A stretch of DNA of 49,690 bases from Clostridiales bacterium (GTDB taxonomy: Bacteria; Bacillota; Limnochordia; Darwinibacteriales; B1SED10-159), in NCBI GenBank assembly GCA_003551965.1, contig PUOC01000071.1, positions 1 through 49,690 of the forward strand, written 5' to 3'. Position 1 is the stretch's first letter; every line of letters starts with the position of its first letter. A program made the translations under genes and the position numbers. The notes beneath the pieces are model-generated. The model had not been told where the DNA came from. It saw only the letters and a program-made list of their open reading frames with translations, and did no database searches. Of the stretch, positions 2 through 6,466 are shown piece by piece.

Positions 2-1291
2 TGCTACCGCGCCGGAGGGCGCACCGTTGAGCAGCCTGCTCACATCATGGATCTTGACAACCTGAGGCCGCCCTATGCAGAGGGCATGGAACAGCTAGAA
101 CACAAGATCCTGTACTATGAAGCCAGCCGGGGCTGCCCCTATCGATGCAGTTTTTGCCTGTCGTCGCTGTCTGGGCCTGTCCGGCATTTTCCGCTGCAGC
201 GCGTCAAAGAAGATCTGCAGGAACTGCTTACCCTGGATCCGGATCAAATCCGGTTTGTGGACCGAACGTTCAATGCCCATCCGCAGCGGGCTTTCGAGCT
301 GGTCCAGTGGATGGCTCGGCAGCCTACGAGAACCCGCTTTCAGCTGGAAATTACCGGCGATACACTGACACAACCATTGGTGGATGTTTTCAAGTCCGCA
401 CCTCCCGGCCGTTTTCAACTGGAAATCGGGGTGCAGTCAACGTACAAAGAAGCCCTAGCGGGTGTGGAGCGGAAATCGGATCTGCAGCAGCTGGCCCAAC
501 GCGTGGAGGAGATCCGCGCCGGAGGTTCCACGGGCATCATGTTGGACCTCATCGCCGGCCTGCCCCACGAATCCTTAGGCCACTTCGCTGCATCCTTTAA
601 TTATGTATATAACCTCGACCCAGGACGCATTCATTTAGGATCACTGAAGTTCCTGCGCGGTTCCGAGCTGCGCCGGCAGTACCGCCGGTGGGGATATGGT
701 TTCCAACGGCATCCGCCTTACGAGGTCCTGTTTTCGGATGCAATATCCTTTGCAGAACTGCACCATCTGCAGATCATATCCGACTTGGTCGACCGTTGCT
801 ACAACTCGGGACGATTTGCCTGGACACTGCCCTGGCTTATCAATCATTTCTTCAGCAGCCCCTTTGCCTTTTACTCGGAATGGGCCCACTGGTGGAAAGA
901 GAGAGGCCTGCATCTGCAGAGCCATGGCGCAGCTGCCCTCTATGGTCACCTGCATGCATTTCTCGGCGGTTGCCGCCACCCGCAATACCGCGCCCTGGCG
1001 GCCTTGGATTTCTGTCTTTTCGAGCGCACGAAAGATGTTCCCGATTTTCTCGATGTTGATGAAGCCGGCGACAACCTCAAGCGTTGGATCCAGTCCCGGA
1101 AAGTTCTTGACAGCTTTCCGGAGTGGGAGCCATTGAGTAACCGCCAGATTCAAAAGCGAACCCGCGCCGTACGACTGCCGGCTGCAGTTTTGGATGAAAG
1201 TGGATGCCCGGCCTACGGCGGAGAGCCGCAGGTCGTCGCCCTGTGCTATCCGGACATGCGGACTCCGGGGATTCCTGTTCTCATAGACTGA
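2..1291 (+). CDS. B12-type radical SAM protein, DUF4080-like (5' end outside window)
   Basis: The frame is open from base 2, so the usual N-terminal cobalamin-binding domain probably lies upstream; the ATG at 47 is internal. The visible part carries the radical SAM [4Fe-4S] motif Cx3Cx2C (CPYRCSFC) soon after a proline-rich linker, followed by the SAM-barrel sequence (LEITGDTL, QLEIGVQS, LDLIAGLPHES). About 180 C-terminal residues rich in Trp, Phe and His resemble the DUF4080 tail of this subgroup. Such enzymes cleave S-adenosylmethionine to a 5'-deoxyadenosyl radical and many act as methylases; the substrate is unknown. The next gene starts about 100 bp downstream in the same direction. Confidence 0.85.
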   Translation, partial: CYRAGGRTVEQPAHIMDLDNLRPPYAEGMEQLEHKILYYEASRGCPYRCSFCLSSLSGPVRHFPLQRVKEDLQELLTLDPDQIRFVDRTFNAHPQRAFELVQWMARQPTRTRFQLEITGDTLTQPLVDVFKSAPPGRFQLEIGVQSTYKEALAGVERKSDLQQLAQRVEEIRAGGSTGIMLDLIAGLPHESLGHFAASFNYVYNLDPGRIHLGSLKFLRGSELRRQYRRWGYGFQRHPPYEVLFSDAISFAELHHLQIISDLVDRCYNSGRFAWTLPWLINHFFSSPFAFYSEWAHWWKERGLHLQSHGAAALYGHLHAFLGGCRHPQYRALAALDFCLFERTKDVPDFLDVDEAGDNLKRWIQSRKVLDSFPEWEPLSNRQIQKRTRAVRLPAAVLDESGCPAYGGEPQVVALCYPDMRTPGIPVLID

Positions 1292-3359: not shown

Positions 3360-4301
3360 TTGAAATTGCTAGTCATGTGGGACGGACTGAAAGAGGACGC
3401 GATCGAAGCCATCCGCCAAAAGACCGGTGCCGAAGTCTATGTGGCCGAAAACCAACAGGATGCAGGAAAGCTGATTGCCGACGCGGACGTTGCCTTCGGT
3501 TTTGTTCCGACCCATCTGCTCGAGAAGGCCCATGCACTGCAGTGGCTCCAGACAGCCTATGCCGGTGTCGAGAGGATACTAGACTCCCCCTGGGGCAACC
3601 CCGATATGATCTTGACCAATGGCAGCGGCATTTTCGGACCCTGTATATCTGAACACATCATCGGCATGATGGTCGGATTCAGCCGCGGCCTGCACATAGC
3701 CCGCGACCACCAATGGAAGCGGCAGTGGCGCTTTGCGTATCCCATGGCTGAACTCACCGGCGCCGCCGTGGGTCTGTTGGGGTACGGTGACATCGGACGG
3801 GAGACCGCCAAGCGCCTGCAGCCCTTCGGCTGCATTCTGCGGGCCATCCGGCGATCGGTTTCCGAGCCTGATCAGTATTTAGACAGTGTTCACACCATGG
3901 ACCAATTGGATTCGCTGCTGCCGGAATTGGACTATCTGGTCTGTTCGCTTCCGCATACCGATGAAACAGCGGGTTTGATCACCTTAGAGAGAATGAAAAG
4001 GATGCCAAAGACTTCAGTCATCATCAACGTGGGCCGAGGTTCGCTAATTCCCGAGGATGATCTTGTCGCCGCTCTGAAGGATGGAGTGATAGCCGGTGCG
4101 GGGCTTGACGTCACGCCTAGGGAGCCGCTGCCCGACGACAGTGCTCTCTGGTCCCTGGAAAACCTGGTTTTGACACCGCACAACAGCGGCTGGACACCGT
4201 ACCATGTCCAACGAGGTCTCAGGATCTTCTTTCAGAACTGGGACCGGTTCATACACGGTGATCCTTTAATCAACCAAGTCGAGCCGAATAAAGGCTACTG
4301 A
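3360..4301 (+). CDS. D-2-hydroxyacid dehydrogenase family protein
   Basis: About 313 residues. The nucleotide-binding motif GLLGYGDIG and the catalytic set of the family are present: Arg in NVGRGSLI, Glu in TPREPLPDDSALW and His in LTPHNSGWT. These enzymes reduce 2-keto acids to D-2-hydroxy acids with NAD(P)H; the substrate cannot be read from the sequence. The reading frame stays open upstream into the M48 gene, but TTG 3360, just after GGAGTG, gives the normal N-terminus (LKLLVMWDGL). It lies 37 bp after the protease gene and ends convergent to fmdB. Confidence 0.85.
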   Translation: MKLLVMWDGLKEDAIEAIRQKTGAEVYVAENQQDAGKLIADADVAFGFVPTHLLEKAHALQWLQTAYAGVERILDSPWGNPDMILTNGSGIFGPCISEHIIGMMVGFSRGLHIARDHQWKRQWRFAYPMAELTGAAVGLLGYGDIGRETAKRLQPFGCILRAIRRSVSEPDQYLDSVHTMDQLDSLLPELDYLVCSLPHTDETAGLITLERMKRMPKTSVIINVGRGSLIPEDDLVAALKDGVIAGAGLDVTPREPLPDDSALWSLENLVLTPHNSGWTPYHVQRGLRIFFQNWDRFIHGDPLINQVEPNKGY

Positions 4302-4355: not shown

Positions 4356-4571
4356 CTAGGATGCTTGTTCGTCGGACGATGAAGAGCTATCTTCTTTCCG
4401 GCTGTCGTTTATGTAGAAGCCGGAACCTTTAAAGATGATACCAACACCGCTGCTGATTTTCCGGTGCACGTCCGACCCGCATGTGGGGCACTGCTGCAGA
4501 GGTGTGTCTTTGATGCTCTGGGTACATTCAAAATCGCCGCAATGACTGCAGTGGTAATCGTATTTCGGCAT
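4356..4571 (-). CDS. FmdB-family zinc ribbon protein
   Basis: A 71-residue protein. It has the two CxxC knuckles of the FmdB/CxxC_CxxC_SSSS family (CSHCGDFE and CPTCGSD), the characteristic GIIFKGSGFYIND segment and a Ser/Asp-rich tail. Members are small putative regulatory or metal-binding proteins of unknown mechanism. The start ATG is preceded by AGGAAAGGACGG on the minus strand. It stands alone between a convergent dehydrogenase and the structured segment at 4692-5064. Confidence 0.9.
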   Translation of the reverse strand: MPKYDYHCSHCGDFECTQSIKDTPLQQCPTCGSDVHRKISSGVGIIFKGSGFYINDSRKEDSSSSSDEQAS

Positions 4572-4691: not shown

Positions 4692-5064
4692 GCATGACTC
4701 TTCAGCAAAGGAAGTCATAGACCCCGCGGCTAAAGCCCCAGGGCTTGTGGTGAACGCCAGACACAAGCCTGCTATGACCAGCCTGAGCCTTCATTGGCTA
4801 CGTTATCTTAGTCATGATACGTTCTGGGTGCTTCTCCAGCCCGTTTCGCTATCGTCTAGCATTAACAGCAAGCTGGGGTGTTTGCAAGCAGTGCGCTAGG
4901 CATGACAAGCTAAGATAACATTGGCGAGGAGAGATGGCCCTATAGGGCCGCGTCACAAGCCCCTTACGGGGTACTGGTAGGGGTTGCCGTTAGCGGTAAC
5001 ACCTACCACCAAAACTAAAACGGTTTCCTCCCCATAGCTAAAGCGAGGGACATCCAACCGTTTG
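4692..5064 (+). ncRNA. candidate large structured RNA, OMEGA/HEARO-like (no nuclease gene adjacent)
   Basis: This 370-bp gene-free segment is dense in complementary arms. Listed 5' to 3': 4694-4718 (ATGACT..TTC with GAAGTCAT); 4742-4769 (GGCTTGTG/CACAAGCC); a long-range 10-bp helix of GTTATCTTAG near 4802 with CTAAGATAAC near 4910; 4936-4949 (GGCCC-TATA-GGGCC); a CCCC/GGGG loop near 4959; 4976-5007 (GGTAGG..CCTACC with a GTTGCCG/CGGTAAC inner stem); and 5018-5063 (AAACGGTT/AACCGTTT enclosing CCTC/GAGG). The CTAAAGC-type motifs occur twice and recall ends of IS200/IS605 elements and guide RNAs of IscB or TnpB. The 5' edge sits at an ATGA tetranucleotide, recalled as a HEARO integration site. 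The family assignment is inference; the extensive pairing is directly visible. Strand is chosen from the motif order. Confidence 0.5.
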
Positions 5065-5080
5065 GAAAGTGGTGATATCA

Positions 5081-5761
5081 TTGAAAACGAATATGGTTAA
5101 AATCCTGCTGACAGGGGTCCTTCTTCTGCTCTCGATGTCCATGACTGCCCAGGGGGAGCCTCTCTCCCTAGAGCAGGTCCTTGATCGGATGGAGGAGCGG
5201 GCTTTGAGTATTCAAGACTTCAGTGCCGGCATGGAGATCACCCACAAGCTTGAGGAGCGGGAACAGACGGTCAAAGCCAAACTCCAGGCCAGCCAAGAAC
5301 TGGGGCTTCTGCGCTTAGAACTGGAAGAGCCTAACGTCCTCCGGGGCCAGATCATCGTTGTGGAACAGGAAACAGCAGAGGTAAAGATGTATATGCCCAT
5401 CGCCGATCAGATCATGGTGAGGGAGGCTGAAGAAGTAGGTGAGGAGGCCGGTATGCCCTTGGATATGCAGAACCTGTCATCGCTGTTTGAATTTTACGAT
5501 TATGATGTCGAGATGAAAGACTACAAGCAAGAGGAATGGAATGGCGAGAGCGGCTATGTGTATGTTTTGGAGGTAACCGGAATTGAAGAGCAGACCCAGG
5601 TGCTTTGGCTGCGGGACAAGGACTGGGTTCCATACCAGATTGAGGTCTATGAAGACGAACGTCTGATTGGAACCATGGAACTCAAGGACATTGCCTTCGA
5701 TCAAGAACTTTCCCGCGACGAACTGGCCGAACTCCCTGATGTACGCGAATTCCGGCCTTGA
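5081..5761 (+). CDS. LolA-like outer-membrane lipoprotein-sorting protein
   Basis: About 226 residues with a signal peptide (MVKILLTGVLLLLSMSMTAQG). The body fits the LolA/LolB-like fold of COG2834: helix LEQVLDRMEERALSIQDFSAGMEI, then beta strands, a segment on membrane-linked state (LRLELEEPNVLRGQIIVV), and a late strand VLWLRDKDWVPYQIEVYE. Relatives carry lipoproteins or lipids across the periplasm; in monoderm Firmicutes they occur as lipoproteins of unclear role. No lipobox Cys is present, so a soluble periplasmic form is likely. TTG 5081 is chosen because GTGGTGAT ends 4 nt upstream; GTG 5069 and ATG 5093 are alternatives. The beta-barrel gene follows after 24 bp. Confidence 0.75.
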   Translation: MKTNMVKILLTGVLLLLSMSMTAQGEPLSLEQVLDRMEERALSIQDFSAGMEITHKLEEREQTVKAKLQASQELGLLRLELEEPNVLRGQIIVVEQETAEVKMYMPIADQIMVREAEEVGEEAGMPLDMQNLSSLFEFYDYDVEMKDYKQEEWNGESGYVYVLEVTGIEEQTQVLWLRDKDWVPYQIEVYEDERLIGTMELKDIAFDQELSRDELAELPDVREFRP

Positions 5762-5785: not shown

Positions 5786-6466
5786 TTGCATACACGCATG
5801 ACGGGCGCAGTACTGGCGGCGCTGCTGGTCCTCTTGCTGCCCTGGTCAGCGCAGGCAGAATTCTCAGCCTTGGTTGGCTGGGAAGAGGAACTGCAGATCG
5901 GAGCAGGATTTAGGGAAACAGAGCGGGAAAGCATGGGCTTCGTCGGCTACGAGGACACTACATTGGAGGTCTTCGCAGTTCAAGGTTGGGAGAGCAGGCA
6001 GTTCGAAGGATACCTGCGGTGGCACACCACCGTCGCAGCTGGAGCTGTGTCCTACAGTTATGGTGCATTTGCCGGGAATACCTTTGATTTTGCTCCGGGG
6101 ACACGTACCTTCGACGGCCATATCGCCGCTGGAGGCGAGGGAAAGTATGTCCAGCGGACAGGTGATTTCGGGTATGGCGTTTCGGGATTGGCGGCCGTCT
6201 CACGGCAGGCGTTTGCATACTCCATCAAGCCCTTCGCGGATTATTACGGAGACGGGCGCTGGAGACTGGCCACCGAACTGGGCTCTGAACCTCTGCGTAT
6301 TTCTGTCAATTTCAAGCACCGCTCCTATCCCTTGGAAGTCGAAGCTGGCTGGCAAGACGGGCATTGGGATGCAAAGGGACTTGTCGATTTTGACCAATGG
6401 CCGCTGTCCGTGGGTGTACGCTACCGCAGAGAAGTCGTGGGCGCCTGGGTGCAGTGGCATTTCTGA
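5786..6466 (+). CDS. predicted outer-membrane beta-barrel protein
   Basis: A 226-residue protein with a signal peptide (AVLAALLVLLLPWSAQA). The mature part is built of short alternating polar/aromatic strands (LRISVNFKHRSY, LSVGVRYRREVV, GAWVQWHF) joined by Gly/Asp-rich turns, and it ends in Phe, as classical outer-membrane proteins do. About 10-12 strands can be sketched by eye. TTG 5786 follows GGGAGGCGAT at proper spacing. It is probably co-transcribed with the LolA-like gene. No specific family is recognised; the barrel assignment is from pattern only. Confidence 0.6.
   Translation: MHTRMTGAVLAALLVLLLPWSAQAEFSALVGWEEELQIGAGFRETERESMGFVGYEDTTLEVFAVQGWESRQFEGYLRWHTTVAAGAVSYSYGAFAGNTFDFAPGTRTFDGHIAAGGEGKYVQRTGDFGYGVSGLAAVSRQAFAYSIKPFADYYGDGRWRLATELGSEPLRISVNFKHRSYPLEVEAGWQDGHWDAKGLVDFDQWPLSVGVRYRREVVGAWVQWHF

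Follow-up and report, generated by a model that had tools for sequence, protein, structure and literature searches.

A non-coding element with a HEARO-type RNA scaffold occurs in multiple copies within Shine-Dalgarno sequences of a Clostridiales genome

In the genome of a Clostridiales bacterium, a 358-bp element with a full-length match to the HEARO RNA family is present in about eight copies, and each of the five copies whose flanks are both resolved splits the Shine-Dalgarno sequence of a gene. The copy described here precedes a lolA-like gene on contig PUOC01000071.1 (assembly GCA_003551965.1); by the window we mean the whole 49,690-nt stretch of DNA that was analysed. We consider it probable, at about 0.83, that this element descends from an iscB-bearing element of the ISC (IS200/IS605-like) kind as a MITE-like, non-autonomous form, which retained its ends and a complete ωRNA, lost iscB and was inserted into the lolA-like Shine-Dalgarno sequence, its ωRNA being used in trans. 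An earlier note, made from the sequence alone, had proposed a stand-alone guide RNA at this place; the multi-copy family and the pattern of its insertions go beyond that reading.

Results

When the whole window was searched with cmscan, HEARO (RF02033) was the single Rfam match above its cut-off, covering model positions 1-211 of 211 at 4714-4939 on the plus strand (118.1 bits against a curated gathering cut-off of 83 bits, E = 7.1e-24). The resemblance to a HEARO/OMEGA scaffold that had been noticed earlier is therefore one of full length. The gene-free stretch that holds the match separates a divergent FmdB-like zinc-ribbon gene from the LolA-like gene, whose product matches Pfam PF17131 below the family cut-off (E = 0.0011) and has an orthologue at 60% identity in G001, a genome of the sister genus. 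On the 3' side of the LolA-like gene, an ORF at 5786-6466 begins like a signal peptide and matches nothing in Pfam. Directly downstream of HEARO an iscB ORF is absent, as the earlier note had it, and the next gene is the lolA-like one; the iscB ORF is not itself what defines HEARO, although it does define the complete element.

Because the copies share a GTCAT start and an end at GGAAAGTG followed by GTGA, with flanks that are unrelated beyond these points, we place the element between 4714, where it begins GTCATAG, and 5071, after which come the target bases GTGA (5072-5075). Both edges proposed earlier are thereby moved: the left one had been set at 4692, and the ATGA near 4693 now falls outside the element, whereas the right one had been set too short, the element reaching the ribosome-binding site of the LolA-like gene (Table 1).

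Table 1. Features of the element and of its surroundings in the window
Feature	Position	Strand	Basis or remark
FmdB-like zinc-ribbon gene	4356-4571	minus	Zn_ribbon_8
Putative 16-nt guide CTCTTCAGCAAAGGAA	4698-4713	+	HEARO boundary and left boundary of six copies; guide length as in IscB systems
Whole mobile element	4714-5071	+	358 bp, target-site duplication absent; shared copy borders and joined flanks
HEARO / candidate ωRNA scaffold	4714-4939	+	full-length RF02033 match; covariation
Long-range helix GTTATCTTAG/CTAAGATAAC	4802-4919	+	helix 8: 11 pairs, 7 changed on both sides, 93% of cells paired
Putative ωRNA 3' extension, GGCCCTATAGGGCC and GCGTCACAAG-CCCCTTACGGGG hairpin	4936-4973	+	side-by-side listing of post-HEARO regions
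Linker hairpin TGGTAGG...CCTACCA, 34 nt	4975-5008	+	fold; apparently at the iscB position of complete elements
Right-end imperfect palindrome AAACGGTT...CTAAAG...AACCGTTT	5018-5063	+	layout matches iscB-bearing right ends
Terminal GGAAAGTG and target GTGA (5072-5075)	5064-5075	+	predicted substitute lolA-like Shine-Dalgarno sequence; anti-Shine-Dalgarno duplex energy
LolA-like lipoprotein-sorting protein, host gene	5081-5761	+	TTG start at 5081; PF17131; G001 orthologue

All of the stems named in the earlier note are present: the 10-bp helix pairs GTTATCTTAG (4802-4811) with CTAAGATAAC (4910-4919), a GGCCC-TATA-GGGCC palindrome occupies 4936-4949, and an 8-bp terminal stem joins AAACGGTT (5018-5025) to AACCGTTT (5056-5063). 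The RNA from 4698 to 5075 folds at -140.5 kcal/mol, compared with -123.3 kcal/mol in shuffles (z = -3.1), and is more stable than 100 of 100 dinucleotide shuffles. The helices also covary: across 14 homologues, 28 pairs of the Rfam helices changed on both sides, against a shuffled mean of 14.6 and with none of 500 shuffles reaching 28; 85% of the cells were paired, and the signal was lost when the partners were slid. These compensatory changes support the predicted HEARO helices. The RNA of the element at 4714-5071 is thereby a candidate ωRNA.

The region after HEARO was compared across the window, G117, G062, L188, L189, L191, L193, L200 and L218, and the GCGTCACAAG-CCCCTTACGGGG hairpin also lies directly upstream of iscB in iscB-bearing elements. 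The interval 4975-5008 would therefore be the spot from which iscB is missing. Imperfect palindromes are found subterminally at both ends; the left one is the first ωRNA hairpin, with CTAAAG, and the right one, TTTCCTCCCCATAGCTAAAGCGAGGG, is framed by a longer stem and arranged like the iscB-bearing right ends of other bacteria. With a 34-nt hairpin where iscB should be, and with its two ends and the whole guide-RNA scaffold preserved, the element looks like a deletion derivative.

Copies elsewhere in the genome, which had been suggested as something to look for, were recovered by blastn and by the right-end pattern (about eight in the draft assembly). Full-length relatives at 91-94% identity lie on C79, C273 and C303, and partial copies, several of them at contig ends, on C140, C32, C26, C137 and C108; that so many of them are cut off at a contig end shows that repeats have fragmented the draft assembly. 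C140 and C108 hold the opposite flanks of a single insertion, because the clpX C-terminus and promoter region lie at the end of C140 and the start of lon on C108, the order seen in G001, where nothing interrupts the clpX-lon interval. Aligned copies start with GTCAT and end with GGAAAGTG and then GTGA (end variants occur in C32, C137 and C108). The core of the right-end palindrome occurs exactly 7 times in the genome, compared with 0 for a reversed-pattern control, and GTGA directly follows the right end in 7/7 cases. Four full copies (91-94% identity) retain the Rfam structure at 86-128 bits; the C137 copy is 5'-truncated and 77% identical. By blastn the element family was not found in two genomes of the same taxonomic family, the matches being short HEARO-core stretches (72-130 bp) in G002 and one of 37 bp in G019. 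The family is MITE-like in that it is non-coding, has several copies and shares the genome with related coding partners (an IscB C-terminus and related HEARO copies). Of the earlier suggestion that the RNA was "non-autonomous or domesticated", the non-autonomous half stands, as a multi-copy family, and domestication finds no support.

The five copies with both flanks resolved (5/5) split a Shine-Dalgarno sequence between its purine-rich part and GTGA, on the sense strand. The genes that follow GTGA encode LolA-like, RnfC, ComEB, YvyF and Lon proteins, with start codons at +6, +6, +6, +7 and +4, respectively; the bases directly to the left of the element are AAAGGAA, GAAAGG, GGGAG, GGTGAG and TGAGGG, and joining the flanks yields Shine-Dalgarno sequences. 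Among 1046 GTGA sites in the host-genome sequences examined, a possible gene start follows at +4 to +7 in 2.0%, and the probability that at least 5 of 7 right flanks would have one is 7e-8. The left flanks likewise show stronger pairing with the anti-Shine-Dalgarno sequence than the background does (p = 9e-5, n = 6).

Comparison with related genomes, which the earlier note had recommended as a search for an empty site, revealed uninterrupted orthologous sites in the sister genus (G001, G002). The joined lolA-like flanks, AGCAAAGGAA plus GTGATATCATTG, align to the uninterrupted G001 site AAAAGAGGACGTGATCTTGTG, and the joined rnfC flanks, GAGAAAGG plus GTGAAACAGTTG, agree nearly letter for letter with G001 AGAAAGGGTGAAGCAATTG and G002 GAGAAAGGGTGAAGCAATTG; at both genes, the comparison gives insertion without target duplication beside a fixed tetranucleotide. 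For comEB, yvyF and lon, G001 has uninterrupted Shine-Dalgarno regions whose identity to the joined flanks is only partial. The left end on C26 follows TAAGGGG, 3' of the stop codon of a gene read by eye as a histidine kinase, and a good start codon is absent near the C32 copy. The C137 copy, upstream of pepF, was dropped as a Shine-Dalgarno insertion: judged by the orthologues, the true ribosome-binding site is some 20 nt farther downstream, and the copy adjoins that site on its upstream side, outside the site.

The last bases of the element, together with GTGA, are predicted to rebuild a ribosome-binding site of similar strength. At the lolA-like gene, the anti-Shine-Dalgarno duplex is calculated at -14.2 kcal/mol for the occupied site and -13.2 kcal/mol for the joined flanks; across sites, the range is -11.7 to -16.1 kcal/mol for joined flanks and -12.3 to -14.2 kcal/mol for occupied sites. 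In two of three folds of the leader, GGUG (5070-5073) of the new Shine-Dalgarno sequence is 83-99% paired, and this pairing may lower lolA-like translation.

In IscB systems, the guide is about 16 nt long and lies upstream of the scaffold, with the target-adjacent motif 3' of the target. An upstream guide of the IscB kind, which had been counted from an edge at 4694, would with the left border at 4714 occupy the 16 bases at 4698-4713. These bases are host sequence just outside the element, and their final AAAGGAA is the left half of the original lolA-like Shine-Dalgarno sequence; GTGA would be the target-adjacent motif. Within the window, CTCTTCAGCAAAGGAA has no second match at up to 3 mismatches. 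The nuclease gene sought elsewhere in the genome was found only in part: an IscB C-terminus (open for 153 aa; NF040563, E = 1.3e-7) is encoded at the end of C12, and no complete iscB was found in the draft assembly. C129, C259, C81 and C274 each break off within a related HEARO copy, with left flanks that differ from those of the element. This related subfamily and the IscB fragment suggest that the nuclease may be supplied in trans. No Y1 transposase gene was found beside any copy; Y1 genes turned up at two loci of the genome, on C91 and, broken, on C308, and neither is linked to the element. The intact Y1 gene, L038 (G000:C91:4536-4871), is a candidate mover. A promoter scan of the window found no consensus promoter upstream of the element.

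Among 63 HEARO loci of other genomes, there is a weak Shine-Dalgarno trend (p = 0.05), and a GTCAT[AG]G subgroup, defined after the data had been seen, gives p = 0.0016 (n = 14). Twenty-five HEARO loci next to iscB in other genomes, a separate set that repeats a few flanks of the first (e.g., L192, L189, L193), show no Shine-Dalgarno preference (p = 0.33), and we reject insertion into Shine-Dalgarno sequences as a general HEARO trait on this ground. Nor do the left flanks of the related subfamily in the same genome (C8, C129, C259, C81, C274; n = 5) have Shine-Dalgarno sequences (p = 0.65). Because iscB-bearing HEARO elements elsewhere show no preference, the splitting of Shine-Dalgarno sequences is a property of the nuclease-less family, whether by way of targeting or of survival.

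Discussion

Cas9 descends from IscB, whose guide lies outside its element; an IscB element therefore needs an external promoter. A family of elements that split Shine-Dalgarno sequences would explain how guides can be transcribed without harm to the host: landing in ribosome-binding sites, each of which is replaced by one of similar predicted strength, may let the element use host promoters without wrecking genes. At the lolA-like gene, insertion on the sense strand, with the purine-rich half of the Shine-Dalgarno sequence to its left, the GTGA half to its right and no duplication of the target, would place the RNA in the host transcript in the correct orientation, and the end of the element would rebuild the ribosome-binding site. 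The ωRNA would be made by read-through from the promoter of the host gene, which is needed because the guide is upstream of the scaffold, outside the element. After processing, this RNA, with its guide at 4698-4713 and the GTGA motif, could be loaded in trans onto IscB from related copies, and the loaded IscB would cut the empty allele, favouring retention or recopying of the element, which a Y1 transposase would mobilize. Copies of the element would then be natural trans-acting guide RNAs, so that their use by IscB and their processing from mRNA leaders become testable.

If the element inserted at any GTGA and the Shine-Dalgarno cases were merely those that survive, the gene being left unbroken and its transcription kept, no targeting would be required; we give this account, which concerns targeting and not the identity of the element, an even chance. 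It agrees with the lack of preference among iscB-bearing loci elsewhere and in the related subfamily, and with the related copy on C8, seemingly in a stop codon (CAGTGA). However, selection against gene damage would also permit insertion into promoter-distal or convergent intergenic regions, where none of the five resolved copies lies. Somewhat short of even odds, and thus put forward tentatively, is the proposal that the family evolved both a target preference for Shine-Dalgarno sequences (between AGGAG and GTGA; on the other strand TCAC^CTCC, which is anti-Shine-Dalgarno-like) and a site-rebuilding end. Under such targeting, the host would tolerate every insertion and express it within the leader of one of its mRNAs, and the guides would share a Shine-Dalgarno seed beside the GTGA motif. 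Target preference and the survival of tolerated insertions are thus set against each other as a testable question.

A dead relic, whose DNA remains while its RNA is no longer made or used, might also stand alone without an adjoining nuclease and include a copy as truncated and diverged as that on C137; the structure held by the four full copies and the intact ends of the element make this unlikely. The position in the lolA-like leader and the predicted pairing of GGUG would suit a 5'-UTR riboregulator, in which a hairpin adjacent to the start codon gates the Shine-Dalgarno sequence, but the same element precedes the unrelated genes rnfC, comEB, yvyF and lon, which points to mobility and not to gene-specific regulation, and we regard such a regulator as distinctly improbable. 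A TnpB-type ωRNA with its guide after 5063, the other option raised in the earlier note, has nothing in its favour beyond a general IS605 resemblance. The sole Rfam family reached is HEARO, at full length and with the opposite guide layout, and no TnpB ωRNA of Rfam matches at the gathering threshold; that option is hardly credible and is not needed.

Our preferred reading, a non-autonomous derivative of an iscB-bearing element, relates the family to several known systems. With HEARO and the IscB ωRNA it shares the full-length match, the helices, the GTCA 5' border, the upstream position of the guide and the association with GTGA, but it has no iscB and passes directly to the right end. ISC elements, as Kapitonov et al. 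reportedly described them in 2016, are iscB-bearing IS200/IS605-like insertions; they resemble our element in the right-end palindrome, the pre-iscB hairpin and the lack of target duplication, whereas ours is 358 bp long and non-coding, with all resolved copies in Shine-Dalgarno sequences. Because these 358 bp encode no IscB, the element is a derivative, and not a member, of the complete (autonomous) ISC class. Stand-alone ωRNA loci served by IscB in trans are said to have been noted by Altae-Tran et al. in 2021 in Ktedonobacter racemifer, and these, too, are multi-copy ωRNAs without a nuclease gene; we know of no report of Shine-Dalgarno insertion or of a rebuilt ribosome-binding site among them. 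Prokaryotic MITEs and other non-autonomous elements of the IS605 type are similarly short, non-coding and multi-copy and retain their ends, but the element here bears an intact guide-RNA scaffold. A literature search for HEARO or IscB insertion at Shine-Dalgarno sequences found nothing. Stand-alone, non-autonomous ωRNA elements are of a kind already known; what appears to be new is that ribosome-binding sites are repeatedly split and rebuilt.

Individual loci add further variety. In L174 (G379:C3:68104-71827), from another genome, an iscB-bearing HEARO element is flanked by AAAGGAG and ATGAATATG, so that here, too, a ribosome-binding site is split; the tetranucleotide is ATGA in place of GTGA. 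The C8 copy, L030 (G000:C8; HEARO at 314-530, minus strand), is without an intact iscB, and its flanks, CAAGAACA and GTGA, when joined across the element read CAG TGA. Another nuclease-less element, of about 440 bp, is present in L155 (G117:C24; HEARO at about 3869-4141), with the same right-end layout and ending in GAGGAGGTGA. Eight HEARO matches occur together with several decayed iscB pseudogenes in G050, spread over many contigs, possibly the graveyard of such a system.
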